Positions 1-32,407 of a stretch of 32,407 bases of DNA are shown piece by piece. Source of the DNA: Salegentibacter agarivorans (GTDB taxonomy: Bacteria > Bacteroidota > Bacteroidia > Flavobacteriales > Flavobacteriaceae); NCBI RefSeq assembly GCF_900113135.1, contig NZ_FOOH01000036.1:1-32407 (forward strand), written 5' to 3'. Each line of letters starts with the position of its first letter. Position 1 is the first letter of the stretch. Below the pieces are notes generated by a model. That model saw only the letters and a program-made list of their open reading frames with translations. It was not told where the DNA came from and did not search any database. The translations under genes were made by a program, and so were the position numbers.

Positions 1-334
1 ATTTTCCATAACAAATCCTTGTCTCTCGACTTGTTTCTGCTTAGCCTGGAAAGGCGAATAATCAGGCTTCCCCCGTTAAGCAAACATTCCTGTTAGTGAA
101 GCCATCCGTTTTAACATATATTGCTATTCGGATTTTGGGCATCGGCACTTTTTGCAACCTTACCCCCAATATATGCCAGAATCGGTTCGATTTCTCTATG
201 TTCCACTAACTTGCTAGGTCTTCCTTCACACCCCACCGTTGCCAGTGACGCACTTGACTTTACATTGCTCTTCCCTCCGATCAGGTGAGCGGGCTTTCTT
301 TCAAGCCTCGGAATTGTTTGCATGCAGGGCAAAC
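1..334 (-). mobile_element. 5' part of a putative group II intron (ribozyme RNA region, runs off left edge)
   Basis: Read on the minus strand this segment is structured and more GC-rich than its surroundings, and contains stretches resembling domain I of bacterial group II introns (a GGTGTGAAGGAAG stretch, then GTGGAACATAGAGAAATCGAACC split by a few bases, then GGGGGAAGCC). It starts directly behind the T-tract of the terminator at 335-364; the first bases GTTTG (334-330) match the group II 5' consensus GUGYG at four of five positions. Near the edge an AAGGA (minus 20-16) precedes an ATG at 9-7 (reads Met-Glu-Asn before the window ends), a plausible start for the reverse transcriptase/maturase. 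Insertion just after a terminator hairpin is the known preference of class IIC introns. A 73-codon open frame inside (332-111) is most likely RNA, not protein. Assignment is from recall of family patterns; the catalytic domain V is outside the window. Confidence 0.5.
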
Positions 335-25780: not shown

Positions 25781-27271
25781 TTATTCCCAGTCAGGCATCT
25801 TTGCATTAGAATATAATTCCTGCCTACTGGATGCTCCCCCGTTTTCAATAAGGGTTTGTTCTATAAACATTTCTGAAATCCCATCGTTAGAAGTATTTAC
25901 ATAAGTAACTTCGGCTTCACTTGGGGAAAACCTTGGATCTAAATCGTTTGTTCCTTCAGGTTTATCATCACTAATATCTGTACTTTGGTTGGTGTTGAAA
26001 TTATAAATAAACATTCTGGAATTAAGTTGACGATAGTCGGCACTCTCATAACCTGAAACATCCCGGGTATACAAGAGTCTTTGGTTATCTACCGATAAAT
26101 TTAAACCACCCAGAGCACCATCGAGTCCAGATATTACAGATTTTATAAAATTACCAGACATATCTATAGTATAAATTTCAGCATTATAACCGGTGGCATT
26201 ATTTACTAACAATGCAATTCGGGTATTGTCATTACTAACATCAACCTCTGTTATAAACTTGCCGTTAGGTTCTTCATAAATTAGGCTTGTTCCGCCGCCG
26301 GTTACATTTACCCTGTATAGTTTTTCGAAATTTGGATAAACCAAACTAGCGCCATCGTTAGCCCAGGAAAAGTCTACTTTCTCGAGGTTAAAGCCGTTTA
26401 CAGGAATGTTGGAAGTGATTTGCGTTTGAGCCGATCCATCTAAATTCATAGTAAAAAGATGGGTTTGATTGCCTACCGTTCTAAGGAAAGCAATTTTATT
26501 GGTACGATGATTTTTACGTGGCCTGAAACTGTTTTGACTGGCAGAAGTTAGCTGATATTCATTTCCGTTTAAATCTCGAGCAAATATTACATTATTGTTA
26601 TTCATCTCCCGCACATACATAAACCTTGTTTTAGGAAATTCTAACGTATTAAAAGAATATACTTCACTTAAAACGGGATCGTTAAGGCTATCTGAAACCT
26701 TTACCTGCCAAAAATATTTATATCCATAATTTAATCCCTCAACTGTTTGTACAGTATCACGAAGTTCTGTAAACCGCATTACTTCGTTATTACGATCGTT
26801 TCTTATTTCAAGTTCGTAAGTAAGGGTATCGTTATCTGCATCCCGGGATTCCCAGGTAAAATCTACGGTGGTAGGTATTCCTTCGGCATTGTCCTGAGGT
26901 GTCAACAAAGTTGGTGCGTCGGGTTTTCTATTATTAGCATTTGCAGGTTGCATTTCAAAAATAACATTTACGTCAGCATTTGCTAAAACTTCAGCGCCTT
27001 CAAATTGGGTTAACAATCCTTCTTTCCTGGCCTGCACAGAATATTCATCTACAGGAACGTTTTCAATTATAAATTCCCCGTTCTCATCGGTAAAAACAGT
27101 AGAAGTTGCCGGTGTGGTTGAAATGCGTACATTTTCTATTGGTTCAAAATCACCCTCGGTCACTACGGTTCCGGTTATGCTTCCACTTTGTAAAGCATCA
27201 ATCGTGTCTTCACTACACCCCACTGAAATGAAAATAAATAACAGCGGAAAAATATATTTTAGATTTTTCAT
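25781..27271 (-). CDS. Curli-operon lipoprotein with carboxypeptidase-regulatory, FN3-like and beta-propeller domains
   Basis: A 496-residue predicted lipoprotein (signal MKNLKYIFPLLFIFISVGC, Cys19). Residues about 30-110 look like a carboxypeptidase-D regulatory-like domain (SITGTVVTEGDFEPIENVRIS in parts, ENGEFIIENVPVDEYSV). Residues about 118-212 look like a fibronectin type III domain (PDAPTLLTPQDNAEGIPTTVDFTW in parts, YGYKYFWQVKVSD). Residues about 215-496 look like a TolB/PD40-type beta-propeller (TRFMYVREMNNNNV, HLFTMNLDGSAQTQIT, AEIYTIDMSGN, LYTRDVSG, then DPRFSPSEAEVTYV). Its start shares a TAATG with the csgG stop, so it belongs to the curli operon. E. coli has no such gene there; fibre anchoring or envelope sensing are guesses. 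Confidence 0.75.
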   Translation of the reverse strand: MKNLKYIFPLLFIFISVGCSEDTIDALQSGSITGTVVTEGDFEPIENVRISTTPATSTVFTDENGEFIIENVPVDEYSVQARKEGLLTQFEGAEVLANADVNVIFEMQPANANNRKPDAPTLLTPQDNAEGIPTTVDFTWESRDADNDTLTYELEIRNDRNNEVMRFTELRDTVQTVEGLNYGYKYFWQVKVSDSLNDPVLSEVYSFNTLEFPKTRFMYVREMNNNNVIFARDLNGNEYQLTSASQNSFRPRKNHRTNKIAFLRTVGNQTHLFTMNLDGSAQTQITSNIPVNGFNLEKVDFSWANDGASLVYPNFEKLYRVNVTGGGTSLIYEEPNGKFITEVDVSNDNTRIALLVNNATGYNAEIYTIDMSGNFIKSVISGLDGALGGLNLSVDNQRLLYTRDVSGYESADYRQLNSRMFIYNFNTNQSTDISDDKPEGTNDLDPRFSPSEAEVTYVNTSNDGISEMFIEQTLIENGGASSRQELYSNAKMPDWE

Positions 27272-28683
27272 TATTGATTGTTTAAGTTGTTATTTCTTTC
27301 ACGTTTAGTTTTACCAAGGTGAAAATTAAGACCAATGCTAAAGTTGAAATAATGGTCGTTTCGCTTACCGTGAACAAACCGGTCCAGTTCGTCGTTAAAC
27401 ATAAGGTTATGCTCTGCAAAACCTCTTATGCCCAACTTATCGGTAATCATATACTCGAGCCCAAGGCCGTATTGAAGTTTAAAATGCGTTGAAGACATTC
27501 CATCAGGCACCTCATCGCTATCCAAACCAAAAACAACGCCGCCTCCGGCAGATAAATAAGGCCCAAAGGTGTCGTTAGGCAAAACATTATATTGTCCATT
27601 CACATCAAGGCCTACAAACTTTTCTGAAAATGCGCCCTGATTTTTAAGCTCAAAAGCATTGGCTGCCAGATTCACAGAAAGGGAAGGGAAAATATTATTG
27701 GTATAATCTACTCTTAACATTCCACCTGCTTCAGCGTTGGAGAAATCCCCGCTCATTAAAGAAGTCCCTACATTAACTCCAATAGAACTGCCGGTTTTAT
27801 CTATAAACTTGCGGTCATATAAGCTTTCCATCCCAGCATCTTCTTTTTCGGTATTATAGAGAGCGATTAATTCGTTTGCTAAAGGTTGCTGATCTTCTCT
27901 GGGAGTCCATAAATTATCCTGAATTCCCTCCAAAACCAGGGCTTCTACCCCTTTTTCTATAGCTTCGGTAACCGCTAATTGTACAGGCTCGTTTCGGGTA
28001 AAGCCGGTTTCAGCTTCCATTAAACGCTGAAAACTCACATATTTAAATAAGCTGGCATCTAAAGCCTGGGAAAGTATAGTTTTAGAAATGTAAACATTCT
28101 TTAAAATTCTTCCACTGGAAGTAGAAACAGCTCTTAGATAAATAGTCACCCTGTCCTGTCTATACTGGGTAGAACCACCAACACCAAAATACCTGGCACC
28201 TAAACCACCAGTAATAATATTGGTATCGTAAGATACTATACCTCCTTCCAGAATAATTCCTGCGTAAAGCAAAGGTGGAAGTTGCGGTTCATTGGTATTA
28301 GAATTAGCTCTGTATTCCTGGCGGGTAGAACGAATTATATTTCTTTCGTTTAAAAGGTTTCCTACGTTTTCTCTTTCTATGGTAGTAAACCATTTAGAGT
28401 CTTCAAGAGCTTTAATAAGAATTGAAGTAGCTCCCTGGGTTACGGCTGTACTAAAGGTACTCCCCATTTCTGAGGGTTTATACTGGCCGGTTAAATCTCT
28501 AAAATTATAGACTCCTACTACCACCGGTTCTTCGGGTAGAGGGAGATTTTTAAGGGCGGTTGTAGCATTTGTACTCTCCCCTATTCTAGCATCCTGATAG
28601 TCTACAGGTTGGTTAAAATAAGATCCGCAAGAACAAAACAGCACCACTACCCCCACTAAAATGGAGTATTGCAAAAATTTCAT
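27271..28683 (-). CDS. csgG: CsgG curli secretion pore with C-terminal beta-barrel extension
   Basis: A 470-residue lipoprotein. The N-terminus has a lipoprotein signal (MKFLQYSILVGVVVLFCSC, Cys19 most likely). Residues about 45-270 match the CsgG pore domain: VVVGVYNFRDLTGQYKP, FSTAVTQGATSILIKALEDS, WFTTIERENVGNLLNERNII in parts, LEGGIVSYDTNIITGGLGARYFGVGG in parts, YRQDRVTIYLRAVSTSSGRIL in parts. E. coli CsgG stops near residue 277, but this one continues with about 185 more residues (285-470) of alternating strands and aromatics (VGTSLMSGDFSNAE, FGPYLSAGGGVVFG, YNFSIGLNFHLG-like end), typical of an OmpA/OmpW-like barrel. It follows csgF by 11 bases. Confidence 0.88.
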   Translation of the reverse strand: MKFLQYSILVGVVVLFCSCGSYFNQPVDYQDARIGESTNATTALKNLPLPEEPVVVGVYNFRDLTGQYKPSEMGSTFSTAVTQGATSILIKALEDSKWFTTIERENVGNLLNERNIIRSTRQEYRANSNTNEPQLPPLLYAGIILEGGIVSYDTNIITGGLGARYFGVGGSTQYRQDRVTIYLRAVSTSSGRILKNVYISKTILSQALDASLFKYVSFQRLMEAETGFTRNEPVQLAVTEAIEKGVEALVLEGIQDNLWTPREDQQPLANELIALYNTEKEDAGMESLYDRKFIDKTGSSIGVNVGTSLMSGDFSNAEAGGMLRVDYTNNIFPSLSVNLAANAFELKNQGAFSEKFVGLDVNGQYNVLPNDTFGPYLSAGGGVVFGLDSDEVPDGMSSTHFKLQYGLGLEYMITDKLGIRGFAEHNLMFNDELDRFVHGKRNDHYFNFSIGLNFHLGKTKRERNNNLNNQ

Positions 28684-28694
28684 AAATAGGAGGT

Positions 28695-29093
28695 TTATTG
28701 TGGAACTATTATTTGAGTTTGCTCGCCGGTATTGGTATCAAGAATATTGATTACCAAACCTTCGTTAGAGGGAAAAATATCTATTGCCAAACTGCCAAAA
28801 GTATATTTTCCTTCCTGTAAACCTGCTTCGCCAAATTCTTCAGTAAATAACTGCCGGCCTACCTGGCCCAGTAACTGTGAATTTAAACTTTGGGTAAATT
28901 GTTGCATTTCAGAAAGTTCCTTGCGTGCAGCATCAGGATCTTCAAAAGAATTTTGTGATTGCGCACTGCTTAAAAGCCACTGGTAGTTAAATGTATCACC
29001 ACCAAATGCGGGATTTTTAGGTGTATAAACCAATTCTTGAGCAGATATTGGGAGACACCAAAAAAATAATAGAATTAAAACTAATCTTTTCAT
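28695..29093 (-). CDS. csgF: CsgF curli nucleation/anchor protein
   Basis: A 132-residue secreted protein, close to the 138 residues of E. coli CsgF. Signal peptide MKRLVLILLFFWCLPISAQ; the mature N-terminus ELVYTPKNPAFGGDTFNYQWL in parts (20-40) is the strongly conserved CsgF segment that inserts in the CsgG pore, with the N-P-x-F-G-G motif. A helical region (about 55-85) and a strand-rich end (about 97-132, FGSLAIDIFPSNEGLVINI in parts) follow. It sits between csgE (19-base gap) and csgG (11-base gap). Confidence 0.92.
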   Translation of the reverse strand: MKRLVLILLFFWCLPISAQELVYTPKNPAFGGDTFNYQWLLSSAQSQNSFEDPDAARKELSEMQQFTQSLNSQLLGQVGRQLFTEEFGEAGLQEGKYTFGSLAIDIFPSNEGLVINILDTNTGEQTQIIVPQ

Positions 29094-29112
29094 AATCGGG
29101 GGGATTAAAAAA

Positions 29113-29874
29113 TTAATATTGTGAAATCTTTTCGCTTCGGTTTTTTAGGTATTCCATATACCTATTCACCTGTTGTAAGGCCGTAACAGCCTGTTCTTTT
29201 AAATAGTCTAATTTTGGTCTGGTAAAAAATTCATAAATCACCTTATCATCTACCTTTACCATTATTTTTGTTGTTCGGCCAAAACTTATCATTTCTTCTA
29301 TTTCTATCATTTTATTACCTTCTACAGGATTTAAACTGTATTGCTGGTAAAAAAAGTCGTAGAAATCTTTTCCGGGTTTCGTTTTTGTTCTTTGAATAAC
29401 CATACTGGTTAATTCAATTCCTTCGTTTCTTTTTTCATAAGAGAGTTGGTTTTCTTCTTTTTCCTCTGTTTTCTCTTCAAATACAATTCTACTGGTACCC
29501 ATAACCTCATCATCTTCGTTATAAATTATTAAAAGAATAATGCTGCGTTGTTGTGGGTTAATTGAAACTGTAGTTGAAGAAAGTTCCCGGGTTTCAAAAG
29601 GCTCTAAAGTGAACCGGCCCGTTTGAGAATTTTTGGAAGAATTATTATCTCCAGATGAAGTAATTACCGATAACTCGTAGTGCAAACTATAAGTAGCCTC
29701 GGTTAAATTTTTAGAAATTCCCGTAATCTCCAGGAGATTATCCTTATTATCATTGGTTTTAATAGAAGCTTCTACTTCTGAATTAAAATTTTGAGCTTCA
29801 GCAGAAACTGAAATTAAAAAAATAAGAACCAGTAAATTCAATGGTCCCGATATTATTTTTCTCAATGAAATCAT
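29113..29874 (-). CDS. csgE: CsgE specificity factor with N-terminal CsgC/CsgH-like domain
   Basis: A 253-residue secreted protein, about twice the length of E. coli CsgE (129). Signal peptide to about residue 28 (VSAEAQ). Residues about 33-132 form a small beta-sandwich-like domain: LLEITGISKNLTEATYSLHYE in parts, NSSKNSQTGRFTLEPFETREL in parts, SINPQQRSIILLIIYNEDDEV in parts. The S-x-x-S-Q-x-G-x-F-x-L pattern resembles CsgH and the CsgC curlin-inhibitor fold. Residues about 150-253 are CsgE: GIELTSMVIQRTKTKPGKDFYDFF in parts (152-175), the hallmark R-T-x-T-x-x-G-x-D-F-Y. The start overlaps the csgB-like stop by ATGA. Confidence 0.85.
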   Translation of the reverse strand: MISLRKIISGPLNLLVLIFLISVSAEAQNFNSEVEASIKTNDNKDNLLEITGISKNLTEATYSLHYELSVITSSGDNNSSKNSQTGRFTLEPFETRELSSTTVSINPQQRSIILLIIYNEDDEVMGTSRIVFEEKTEEKEENQLSYEKRNEGIELTSMVIQRTKTKPGKDFYDFFYQQYSLNPVEGNKMIEIEEMISFGRTTKIMVKVDDKVIYEFFTRPKLDYLKEQAVTALQQVNRYMEYLKNRSEKISQY

Positions 29875-30356
29875 TTAAAATTTCTTACAATTAAAGAGCG
29901 TGAATCACCATTCATATGAAATTTCAGATTATTTCCAATAGAATTAGAACCAAATTGTTCAAAATGATGGTTTTTCCCTTGCTGATTAAGCTCTAAACTT
30001 ATTTCTTCTCCAGGACTGTTCACAAAATTGAAAGCCTTATGCCTGTCTCCATTTTGTACAATTGAAGATGAAAAGGTTGTGGCAGTAACATTAGAATAAA
30101 TATTATTAAAATTTCCATTTTGAATGTAAACAGATTTATTCTCCTGGGCTCTTACCGAAGTATATACCTGGTTTCTATCTCCAATTTGATTTATGAAGAC
30201 TTCATTATTTACCTGTTTATTCTCCTTTTGCACACTTGCCAAAAGATTTACTACAACCTGATTTTGAATTCGATTATGAGTTAAATTATCCTGGGCAGTT
30301 AACTGGAAATTAAAACAAAGCAGTAATAAAAAAGTGCTAAAACCAATACTTCTCAT
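29871..30356 (-). CDS. csgB: Minor curlin, CsgB-like nucleator
   Basis: A 161-residue secreted protein. Signal peptide MRSIGFSTFLLLLCFNFQLTAQ, split across residues 1-22. After it come about five degenerate curlin repeats with Q-x-G at 57-59, 79-81, 101-103, about 125-127 and near 149, close to 22-residue spacing (VFINQIGDRNQV, VYIQNGNFNNIY, SIVQNGDRHKAF, LELNQQGKNHHF). The repeats are less regular than in the major subunit and the end is basic (SRSLIVRNFK), like the last CsgB repeat. Start at ATG 30356, because a longer frame to 30401 would translate the terminator hairpin. The stop overlaps csgE by four bases. Naming as CsgB rests on place and repeat degeneracy. Confidence 0.7.
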   Translation of the reverse strand: MRSIGFSTFLLLLCFNFQLTAQDNLTHNRIQNQVVVNLLASVQKENKQVNNEVFINQIGDRNQVYTSVRAQENKSVYIQNGNFNNIYSNVTATTFSSSIVQNGDRHKAFNFVNSPGEEISLELNQQGKNHHFEQFGSNSIGNNLKFHMNGDSRSLIVRNFK

Positions 30357-30375
30357 AAGATGAATTTTTAAATAA

Positions 30376-30412
30376 AAATAACCCGGACGCCTAAAATACA
30401 TCCGGGTTATTT
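30376..30412 (-). terminator. Intra-operon terminator between major curlin and csgB-like gene
   Basis: AAATAACCCGGA (30376-30387) and TCCGGGTTATTT (30401-30412) form a perfect 12-bp stem with a 13-base loop, followed on the minus strand by TTTTTATTT. It lies 12 bases after the major curlin stop and 20 bases before the csgB-like ATG, so it can both end the major curlin message and lie in the leader of the next gene. Confidence 0.8.
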
Positions 30413-30424
30413 TCTATTTATTAA

Positions 30425-31210
30425 TTAGTTTGCTGATGGAACTAAGTTACCCTGGTTAACCATTGAAGTGTTATGGTTTCCACTCTGGTTCACTAAGCTC
30501 ATATGCATGCTACCACCTTGAGTAACAGTGCTGGCATTATGATTTCCAGATTGCATAGACCAGGACATATGGCGATCTCCTTTTTGTTCTACATCACTAG
30601 TGTTGTGATCTCCAGTTTGGGTTACGTAAGAATTACTTCCCCATCCGTTTTGGTAAACATCACTCTCATTGTGGTTTCCAGATTGAAAGGTATAAGATTC
30701 ATGACTTGCACCAGTTTGAAAATCGTCAGCAGAGTTATTATCCCCAGACTGCGTTTGAATAGAAACATGGTTGCTGTTTAATTGCTCGATACTAGCATCG
30801 TTGCCGTTTCCAGATTGTATTTGCATAGCCACACCATTTACAGTTCCGCTTCCTGCACCATTTGTATATGGAGAATCTTGAGAAATTACAGCTTCGTTGT
30901 GGTTACCACTTTGATATTGCATAGAGAAATTCGCCGCTGGTCCTTGTAGACCATCATCATTCTGACCTGAAATAGCAGAGTTATGACTTCCGGTTTGAAT
31001 AACAAAAGCTTCATTATACTCAGCTTTTTGATCTACATCAGCAGAGTTATGATCTCCAGATTGAGAAACAAAAGACAGGTTAGATAATCCTTGTTGATCT
31101 ACATCAGATTGGTTATGATTACCAGATTGACCAACAAGACTTGAATTACTTTGAGCAAATGCAACTGCCCCAAACATTAGCGCGCTAGCGCAAAAAATCA
31201 CTTTTTTCAT
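30425..31210 (-). CDS. csgA: Major curlin subunit, CsgA-like, ten repeats
   Basis: A 261-residue secreted amyloid subunit. Signal peptide MKKVIFCASALMFGAVAFA, cleavage before Gln20. The mature part has ten curlin repeats with Q-[ST]-G starting at residues 28, 50, 72, 100, 132, 154, 176, 198, 220 and 242. Spacing is exactly 22 except between repeats 3-4 (28) and 4-5 (32), where insertions rich in Gly, Asn and Asp sit (NDDGLQGPAANF; SPYTNGAGSGTVNG). The consensus is QSGNHNxSxVxQxGxxxxSxVx. Histidine occupies position +4 in eight repeats. E. coli CsgA has five repeats. It is first in the operon, closed by a hairpin at 30376-30412. Confidence 0.93.
   Translation of the reverse strand: MKKVIFCASALMFGAVAFAQSNSSLVGQSGNHNQSDVDQQGLSNLSFVSQSGDHNSADVDQKAEYNEAFVIQTGSHNSAISGQNDDGLQGPAANFSMQYQSGNHNEAVISQDSPYTNGAGSGTVNGVAMQIQSGNGNDASIEQLNSNHVSIQTQSGDNNSADDFQTGASHESYTFQSGNHNESDVYQNGWGSNSYVTQTGDHNTSDVEQKGDRHMSWSMQSGNHNASTVTQGGSMHMSLVNQSGNHNTSMVNQGNLVPSAN
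30455..31129 (-). repeat. Ten tandem 66-base curlin-coding units
   Basis: Codon 28 to about codon 252 of the major curlin gene. The DNA repeats are degenerate but visible as recurrent CAGATTGGAGATC-like and CAGAATGGTAACC-like blocks every 66 bases on the minus strand, with insertions after the third and fourth. They are coding repeats, not CRISPR units. Confidence 0.75.
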
Positions 31211-31245
31211 AATAAAAAATTAAGGTTAAAAAAATATTTAAATTA

Positions 31246-31274
31246 AAAACTTACAATTTCACTTTGGGGCAAAA
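31246..31274 (-). promoter_or_regulatory. Candidate promoter of the curli operon
   Basis: On the minus strand TTTTG (31274-31270) and TAAGTTTT (31253-31246) are 16 bases apart, near but not exactly the Bacteroidota consensus (18-21 apart, TAnnTTTG). Transcription would start near 31240, about 30 bases before the csgA ATG. Weak; another start may exist in the long upstream region. Confidence 0.35.
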
Positions 31275-32054
31275 CGAGTCTTCTTCATAACTATAATAAA
31301 ACTATACTATAGAAATAGAATTAATGTTGGGGGCATAATGTGTAGGGAGTTAGAATTTGACGCAACCTTGGGGGGAAGGTTTAGGGGGGTGTTAAATTCT
31401 GATGCTAATATAGGATGGATTTTAGGACGAAAATATACTTTTCGATGAAGAGCTACATTTTTTGACAAGATGTGAAATGAATCTTAAAGGAATAATTATA
31501 CGGGAAAACCCGTATGCACTTATTTGAATTAGTAGGAATTTTCTTATCCTCTTTATATTTTATATAATTCATTGAAAAGCAGATTCTAAATCTTTAGTTT
31601 TCAGTAGATTTATAAAAATTACAGTTATAAAAATTTTAAAAATTTAATAGGAAGAAATAAAATTATAGCCGCGCTCTAAAATCTTTAAAAAAGTTGAATT
31701 AATCGATATGGTGTGAAATTTCCTATAAAATTTATCCAAATAATAAGCTCATTTCAAAAGAAGACTAAAACACACATAAAGCACTGATTTATAATATTTT
31801 ATAGTTATTTTACAAGTCCCCGATAAAAATTGAAGAAATTCTGCGCTAAAAAGCAGTTTAATACACGCTAAAATAAAAATTGTAGGAAATAACTTATAAT
31901 TCTTAATAATAATAAAGGTAGTTTCCGGTACGGGAAAGCTCCAAAAATGCGGAAATCCTCTTAAAAACAGAAAAAGTCTTCTGTAATAGAATTAAAATAA
32001 TGAAAATAGTACTCAAATTAGGTAATTAAAATTTTAAAATTAGTTCTGAAACAA
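31275..32054. other. About 0.8 kb gene-free AT-rich region upstream of the curli operon
   Basis: No frame with a believable start and codon pattern and no tRNA is visible. It contains a cluster of G-runs at 31329-31398 (G5, G3, G6, G6) in otherwise AT-rich DNA, a perfect small palindrome ATACGGG-aaaa-CCCGTAT at 31498-31515, and long A/T tracts. It ends at the IS1182-type element. It may be the regulatory region of the curli operon, or hold debris from insertion events. Confidence 0.5.
31498..31515. promoter_or_regulatory. Palindrome upstream of the curli operon
   Basis: ATACGGG (31498-31504), AAAA, CCCGTAT (31509-31515): a perfect 7-bp inverted repeat, the only one of its kind that I see in the region, about 290 bases upstream of the csgA start. 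It could be a dimeric-regulator site. Function not shown. Confidence 0.3.
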
Positions 32055-32056
32055 AA

Positions 32057-32407
32057 AAGAGGCTGTCTGAAAAGGCAGCCTTTCTTGTTGGATTATTTTG
32101 AGGTTTTTATTATTTTCATGTAATGAAAGCTAAAGTTGTATTTAAGACCTATAACCAGTCGCAGTTAAGTCTTTTACCTCCCAGTTATGATGATTTGGTT
32201 CCTGTAAATCATCCCGTTAGAATCGTCAATACGATTATTGATCAAATCGACATCGCTGACCTGGAGCGAAGTTACAAAGGAGGTGGTACTTCCAGTTACC
32301 ATCCTCGGATGCTTCTTAAGGTGATCATCTATGCGTACCTGCGCAATATGTATTCCTCTCGTAAGATAGAACAGGCTCTTCTGGAGAACATTCATTTTAT
32401 GTGGCTC
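32057..32407 (+). mobile_element. 5' end of an IS1182-family insertion sequence (runs off right edge)
   Basis: The end begins near 32057 with AGAGGCTGTCTGAAAA, like IS1182-family terminal inverted repeats that start GAGGCTGTC. AGGCTG (32060-32065) and CAGCCT (32076-32081) inside it form a small hairpin followed by a T-rich run, which shields the transposase gene from incoming transcription. The transposase gene starts at 32123. The exact boundary and target duplication cannot be set because the other end is outside the window. Confidence 0.75.
32123..32407 (+). CDS. IS1182-family transposase, N-terminal part
   Basis: The first 95 residues of a transposase, open to the window end. The sequence opens MKAKVVFKTYNQSQLSLLPPS and goes on with DLVPVNHPVRIVNTIIDQIDI, SYKGGGTSSYHPRMLLKVIIY and SSRKIEQALLENIHFMWL in successive stretches (about 25-95). 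This is the conserved N-terminal helical domain (DUF772-like) of IS1182 transposases; the DDE catalytic residues lie further on, outside the window. Start at ATG 32123, about 65 bases inside the element end. Whether the element is intact cannot be seen. Confidence 0.85.
   Translation, partial: MKAKVVFKTYNQSQLSLLPPSYDDLVPVNHPVRIVNTIIDQIDIADLERSYKGGGTSSYHPRMLLKVIIYAYLRNMYSSRKIEQALLENIHFMWL

Follow-up and report, generated by a model that had tools for sequence, protein, structure and literature searches.

A curli operon of Bacteroidota type in Salegentibacter agarivorans with a CsgC/CsgH-like domain fused to CsgE, and a candidate recoding joint in Flavobacterium relatives

The contig NZ_FOOH01000036.1 of Salegentibacter agarivorans (Flavobacteriaceae), analysed over its whole length of 32,407 nucleotides (hereafter the window), carries between positions 25,781 and 31,210 a complete curli (type VIII secretion) operon. 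It consists of six minus-strand open reading frames (ORFs) in the collinear order csgA, csgB-like, csgE, csgF, csgG and a lipoprotein gene. The locus is very probably a working secretion-assembly operon of Bacteroidota type and, judged from comparisons with its relatives, is a real, conserved and lineage-specific curli variant. We further consider it likely that the curli machine of Bacteroidota is distinct, with a CsgE-tethered chaperone in Flavobacteriaceae, a β-barrel on each CsgG and a dedicated lipoprotein, and that in a large Flavobacterium clade a −1 slip on a run of ten A's (A10) sets the ratio of free CsgH to CsgH-CsgE, the window representing a hard-wired, all-fusion version.

An earlier reading of the window from its letters alone (the sequence-only reading) had described six same-direction genes forming a complete, collinear curli operon, and this description held. 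The profiles that it had proposed as a check, namely those of CsgG, CsgF, CsgE and the curlin repeat, all matched above the curated Pfam and NCBIfam thresholds, which served as cut-offs throughout, except in the csgB-like gene. The major curlin matched PF07012 with 90.2 bits in nine stretches. The minor curlin was borne out in part: it has four spaced Q-x-G units, and its PF07012 score of 16.4 bits lies under the cut-off of 20.7, which counts against a working operon. An inner ATG at 30356 is probably the true csgB start because a signal-peptide-like start lies there, and the gap between csgA and csgB would then be 68 nt. With the first ATGs, the overlaps reported earlier were found as described (csgB/csgE, 4 nt, ATGA; csgG/lipoprotein gene, 1 nt, TAATG), and the remaining intergenic gaps were 23, 19 and 11 nt. 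In a genome search, CsgG, curlin and CsgH-like sequences each turned up at a single place, the last of them inside csgE, and a second place for any of the three was ruled out.

All six reading frames were intact. The operon of S. holothuriorum, a synteny comparison proposed in the sequence-only reading, was collinear with the window over 6.5 kb at 84% DNA identity, with CsgG 91% identical. Ratios of nonsynonymous to synonymous substitution (Ka/Ks) between the two were 0.044–0.249 for the six genes (csgA, 0.153; csgB-like, 0.249), indicating purifying selection on all six. These observations stand against a reading of the locus as a remnant that is decaying or silent. We regard that reading as highly improbable, although a transposase-like ORF on the far side of the long upstream region, at the contig end, and the lack of a clear promoter would be consistent with it. 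No match to what we take to be the Bacteroidetes −33/−7 promoter consensus was found in the upstream intergenic region (Table 1), where two weak partial matches occurred and no promoter was recognised; this counts against a working operon. Identity of CsgG to that of the window ranged from 91% to 53% among five Salegentibacter records (L151, L154, L155, L190 and L200, the first being S. holothuriorum), which may point to a transferred locus or to one that diverged long ago.

Table 1. Features of the curli locus in the window.
Feature	Positions	Strand	Length	Details
csgA-like major curlin	30425–31210	−	261 aa	Signal peptide-like start; 11 Q-x-G-x-x-N units
csgB-like minor curlin	29871–30401	−		About four degenerate repeats
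csgH-csgE in-frame fusion	29113–29874	−	253 aa	Signal peptide-like start; CsgC/CsgH-like seven-stranded domain, aa ~34–132; disordered linker, ~137–155; CsgE, ~156–246
csgF	28695–29093	−	132 aa	PF10614, 139 bits, above cut-off
csgG with C-terminal outer-membrane β-barrel	27271–28683	−	470 aa	Lipobox Cys19; CsgG domain, 47–262; eight-stranded OmpA-like barrel, ~299–456
Curli-linked lipoprotein	25781–27271	−	496 aa	Lipobox Cys19, then SEDT; CarboxypepD_reg (PF13620, 47.5 bits, above cut-off), fn3-like (below cut-off), probable TolB/DPP-like propeller
Upstream intergenic region	31211–32122	none	912 bp	Without listed gene

The sequence-only reading had called CsgE and CsgG enlarged, and in both proteins the extra part proved to be a defined domain, CsgC/CsgH-like in the former and an eight-stranded barrel in the latter. 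In CsgE, residues 156–246 matched Pfam CsgE (PF10627, 54.4 bits), and residues 43–124 matched the NCBIfam CsgH family (NF041112) with 36.5 bits against a cut-off of 35. An AlphaFold model built on an alignment of 62 family members (mean predicted local distance difference test score, pLDDT, 86.4; predicted template modelling score 0.52) had seven strands connected through a disordered linker to a CsgE-like part that stood apart. A Foldseek search returned CsgH (2n59) at rank 5, with a template modelling (TM) score of 0.62 by target, and CsgC (2xsk) at rank 11 (TM 0.70), while a profile search of PDB sequences found CsgE (2na4, 7.8e-7) and, weakly, CsgC (0.027). On this evidence, the CsgC/CsgH-like part is fused into CsgE rather than absent. 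The earlier statement that a separate csgC is absent is accordingly incomplete: the search of the organism's own genome for CsgH-like sequences, with csgC itself not searched on its own, found no separate CsgH-like gene, and the statement misses the domain that forms the N-terminal part of CsgE. The presence of that domain also rules out a simple loss of CsgC/CsgH function as the description of the locus.

Several observations weigh against so specific an assignment. The margin over the NF041112 cut-off is just 1.5 bits, and the best PDB folds in Foldseek were unrelated immunoglobulin (Ig)-like proteins that ranked above 2n59 and 2xsk; the seven-stranded Ig-like sandwich is present in the model, and the fold is not exclusive to CsgC and CsgH. 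The distant cysteine pair used by Taylor et al. as a CsgH criterion is missing, with two cysteines in none of the 62 fused-domain rows. The net charge of the domain is −8 in the window (family median −2), that of CsgA being −20, whereas CsgC and CsgH are described as acting through a positive patch; the inhibitor activity of the domain may be weaker or lost. The name "CsgC/CsgH-like" was adopted on account of the missing cysteine pair and the acidity of the window's domain. These two features, together with unrelated Ig-like sandwiches that score equally well or better and with other lineages that have LysM or no recognised domain at this position, which thus tolerates varied modules, would fit a generic Ig-like spacer or oligomerisation domain that resembles CsgH at the level of fold only. 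We consider such a spacer unlikely, since the CsgH cut-off is reached by the window domain and also by a separated form found in Flavobacterium (see below), and since this separated form and two standalone proteins matched CsgC, below its cut-off. In addition, the standalone genes adjoin curlin genes, like csgH in alphaproteobacteria.

CsgG matched PF03783 with 218 bits, and its C-terminal part matched the outer-membrane barrel family OMP_b-brl (PF13505) with 38.3 bits (cut-off 28.7). The model showed eight C-terminal strands after the CsgG domain. In Foldseek, the CsgG part matched the solved CsgG structures 4uv2 and 4uv3, and the barrel matched OmpA (1qjp, TM 0.80 by target) and NspA (1p4t, 0.76). 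Confidence in this model was limited, with a mean pLDDT of 70.4 overall and low values in parts of the CsgG domain; values below 50 at 106 of 452 residues speak against the model, the barrel strands not being among those residues. The ends of such a barrel and the C-terminus of CsgG are both expected to be periplasmic, and the fusion is therefore topologically sensible. Nine satellite barrels might ring the CsgG pore.

The sixth gene, described earlier as a propeller lipoprotein, does encode an extra lipoprotein; its propeller is likely, although the TolB and Dpp5 matches behind that label were far under cut-off. The CSEDT after its signal resembles the surface signal SDDFE of F. johnsoniae, a resemblance only; SDDFE is the consensus for surface-lipoprotein export in that species given in the text of PMC5080379. 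In a phylum sample of 395 Bacteroidota genomes, CsgF was found in 50 (45 above cut-off), and full-length relatives of the lipoprotein occurred in 24 (family profile, E 9e-168 or better). All 24 belong to the 50 csgF-positive genomes, and none was found among the 345 csgF-negative genomes (P ~7e-25 if placement were random, with no correction for kinship); the genome samples of the CsgF and lipoprotein searches had the same size and, where shown, the same genome labels. A caution against this pattern is that the lipoprotein search scored three first-look candidates per genome, in the rows shown. The gene lay inside the fetched csg locus in 23 of the 24 genomes and just beyond it, ~7.5 kb from csgF, in the last. 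Four more matches covered the N-terminal part only, three of them in csgF-negative genomes. This N-terminal part also occurs alone in several distant families, in proteins mostly of 205–270 aa, and one or other form is present in 37 of the 41 strong loci defined below. We propose that the lipoprotein is a surface-exposed, curli-specific accessory.

To place these fusions among relatives, 47 csg loci of the phylum sample were fetched besides the window, the weak CsgF matches G292 and G085 being left out, and those with CsgF at E 2e-29 or better were called strong (n = 41, window included). CsgG and the barrel were in one frame in all 41. In the seven fetched loci with weak CsgF (L073–L079), which belong to a single family (f18), CsgG was plain (290–322 aa) and the CsgE profile detected no CsgE. 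The N-terminus of CsgE varied by lineage. Of the 16 loci from the window's family and one other family of its order, 14 had the in-frame CsgH-CsgE fusion and two were split. A standalone CsgH-like gene lay near the curlin genes in six of the 41 strong loci, all in more distant families (f9, f36 and f44); two of the encoded proteins were checked against NCBIfam and both exceeded the CsgH cut-off. The same CsgH module thus exists both separate and fused. In four proteins of families f24 and f43 (L037, L039, L043 and L060), selected for a LysM-like look, all four carried an N-terminal LysM in place of CsgH, suggesting a cap anchored to peptidoglycan; at least two other proteins of f24 (L058 and L064) were not LysM-like by eye. 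For family f5, the CsgE N-terminus gave nothing in Pfam (two proteins) and noise far below the NCBIfam cut-off (one protein), and the remaining strong loci examined had no recognised domain there. Curlin genes were placed between csgF and csgG in three loci (L059, L060 and L066).

Among named relatives, the best 80 of 573 or more loci comprised 64 with the in-frame fusion and 16 with split genes. CsgG and the barrel were in one frame in 79 of these 80 (L217 has a stop between the parts), and the full lipoprotein was present in 78, the two loci without it stopping at contig edges. Since the same parts recur in relatives, a combination unique to this genome is ruled out; the fusions are ordinary for the family and none is peculiar to the window. 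The label "non-canonical" given earlier thus applies relative to E. coli and not among relatives, given that most of these 80 loci share the fused genes and every strong locus has the CsgG barrel. Two CsgH-like domains in tandem precede CsgE in L182, L191 and L224, which come from two Olleya and one metagenome-assembled genome (MAG) of Lutibacter. A contig of Flavobacteriaceae bacterium RhTr2 carries two csgG loci (L166 and L175) at a distance of ~9 kb, which may reflect an operon duplicated in tandem.

In two loci of the window's family, CsgH and CsgE were encoded in different frames. The CsgH of one of them, used as query, matched in 72 of 299 genomes of its genus, which the named loci identify as Flavobacterium; this sample leans to relatives of a split species. 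Of the 70 junctions read (L080–L149), half were split and half in frame, and the other two of the 72 (L042 and L072) were in frame without a run. Every one of the 35 split junctions had exactly ten A's in the domain linker and needed a −1 shift, whereas a run of 9–11 A's was present in only seven of the 35 in-frame junctions and absent from the other 28. Across 36 split genes (the 35 and L047), the base after the run was always G and the base before it was G in 32 and C in four. The zero-frame phase of the joint contains A_AAA_AAG, which is the shift site of E. coli dnaX (PMC5009743, in the parts covered). Across the ORFs of 38 Flavobacterium loci (two genomes were counted twice), the number of A runs fell from 302 at A6 through 71 and 22 to four at A9 and then rose sharply to 32 at A10; A10 stood at the joint in 30 of 36 counted loci. 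Both halves are under purifying selection, with median Ka/Ks values of 0.12 for H and 0.10 for E and no usable pair above 1 (278 and 293 of 630 pairs were usable, with synonymous sites near saturation). In a quick tree, 35 of the 36 split genes formed one group of 39 members together with four in-frame genes, three of these having A10 or A11, and the remaining split gene lay elsewhere. The 16 named split loci likewise all had A10 and the −1 shift, 15 being titled Flavobacterium (including F. xueshanense, F. aquidurense and F. tiangeerense) and one a Flavobacteriaceae MAG. Split loci besides those of the L080–L149 subset were L047, L187, L189, L192, L194, L201, L203, L205–L207, L214, L216, L217, L220, L222, L223 and L229.

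A slippery run in fixed phase and a downstream frame under selection are thus both found in Flavobacterium csgH/csgE, and together they speak strongly, if indirectly, for a programmed frameshift or for slippage during transcription, either of which would yield free CsgH plus CsgH-CsgE; transcriptional slippage would serve as well as a ribosomal frameshift. Seven in-frame genes carry a run, and in each of them the two alternative frames reach a stop no more than nine codons from where the run begins; slippage at these runs would therefore yield CsgH without CsgE. Some observations argue against a fixed design. Near-identical joints can differ by one A, as in F. erciyesense (L187, A10, split) and F. 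turcicum (L204, A11, in frame), and in-frame runs of 8–11 A's also occur in other genera, e.g., Aquimarina. Downstream structure at A10 was weak: with simple shuffling, z averaged −1.36 and fell below −2 at 10 of 36 sites. A Shine–Dalgarno-like stimulator was found at one of the 36. Absence of recoding altogether, with CsgE translated from its own start and the break due to a neutral indel or a homopolymer sequencing error, would account for the lack of a strong downstream structure, the near-absence of a stimulator and the change in run length between such relatives. This alternative is nevertheless improbable in our estimation: the run and the direction of the shift are identical in every split locus of both sets, the E frame shows the constraint described above, the E frames inspected had no signal-peptide-like segment, and seven of the split genomes are single-contig assemblies. 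As for the window itself, its csgH-csgE has no such run (longest, A6).

Taken as a working machine, the operon would export CsgA and the CsgB-like subunit to the periplasm. CsgE would cap the CsgG pore, and its flexible linker would tether the CsgC/CsgH-like inhibitor of amyloid nucleation, so that the amyloid-prone substrate could be held unfolded at its loading place by the tethered inhibitor. CsgG would form the pore, with the OmpA-like eight-stranded barrel of each subunit beside it in the outer membrane, and CsgF would guide nucleation outside. The conserved lipoprotein, probably surface-exposed, would be a lineage-specific extra that might anchor the base of the fibre or act as its receptor. 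Of this picture, the genes, their domains, their conservation and their co-occurrence were observed, whereas secretion, amyloid formation, the chaperone function of the tethered domain, the ring of barrels and the part played by the lipoprotein are inferred. According to PMC4838910, CsgC and CsgH inhibit CsgA nucleation, and a proposed role is to maintain CsgA in a state suited to its recruitment by CsgG-CsgE.

Compared with E. coli csgBAC/csgDEFG, the window has homologues of CsgG, CsgF, CsgE and curlin, and the same secretion logic is expected, whereas it differs in forming one collinear operon with no csgD beside it, in carrying a CsgC-like part on CsgE, and in having the CsgG barrel and the lipoprotein as extras. 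Reading of the ORFs revealed no csgD in the operon, and no genome-wide search for csgD was made. Bacteroidetes operons described in the main text of Dueholm et al. (2012, PMC3521004) resemble the window in lacking csgC and, Spirosoma excepted, csgD; the same text states that the size of CsgG is unaffected by that of CsgA, and the words "fusion" and "lipoprotein" do not occur in it, figures and supplement lying outside this check. A CsgH-like subfamily in Bacteroidetes is noted in PMC4838910, whose main text, apart from its supplement, contains neither "fusion" nor "fused". The domain of the window shares with CsgC and with CsgH of alphaproteobacteria (2XSK and 2N59; PMC4838910, main text) the seven-stranded Ig-like fold and the link to curli, whereas it differs in being fused to CsgE, acidic and without the cysteine pair. 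In the covered text of PMC12822426, none of the five commonest curli gene sets combines CsgE with CsgH, and no fusion is described in the covered parts of PMC10192328 and PMC5135000. Neither the CsgH-CsgE nor the CsgG-barrel fusion was found described in the literature searched, which left out most subscription papers. Likewise, the literature searched contained no curli recoding, and the recoding papers PMC3711429 and PMC5009743, the latter partly covered, gave no curli match. The Flavobacterium joint resembles dnaX-type dual products (PMC5009743, in the covered part) in its A_AAA_AAG phase and in the short and long products expected, and differs from them in its putative products, which would belong to a secretion system and comprise the chaperone by itself and the chaperone joined to the cap, and in that the window lacks the run.

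These results suggest that the amyloid inhibitor reported missing in Bacteroidetes is, in Flavobacteriaceae, joined to the secretion cap. The fused inhibitor makes a handover from inhibitor to CsgE to pore directly testable, while the CsgG barrel could serve as a domain tag, and the lipoprotein as a marker, for such operons in genomes and metagenomes. If recoding does take place at the A10 joint of Flavobacterium, it would give a functional-amyloid system a natural switch that sets the dosage of its chaperone.

Regarding the setting of the operon, an upstream palindrome (ACGGG-TTTT-CCCGT) was rejected as a conserved element, being absent from the S. holothuriorum locus (spacers 2–8) and from L151–L230 (spacers 3–5). 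An Rfam search at the gathering threshold found no element at the curli locus; the sole match in the window was a group II intron (D1-D4-3, 63 bits, 83–248, minus strand) at the window start. Upstream of the operon, 32123–32407 holds the first part of a DUF772-type transposase gene that the end of the contig truncates, and S. holothuriorum has a long upstream ORF presumably resembling glutamine synthetase III. An AIR-synthase-like gene, which we take to be purM, comes after the operon.

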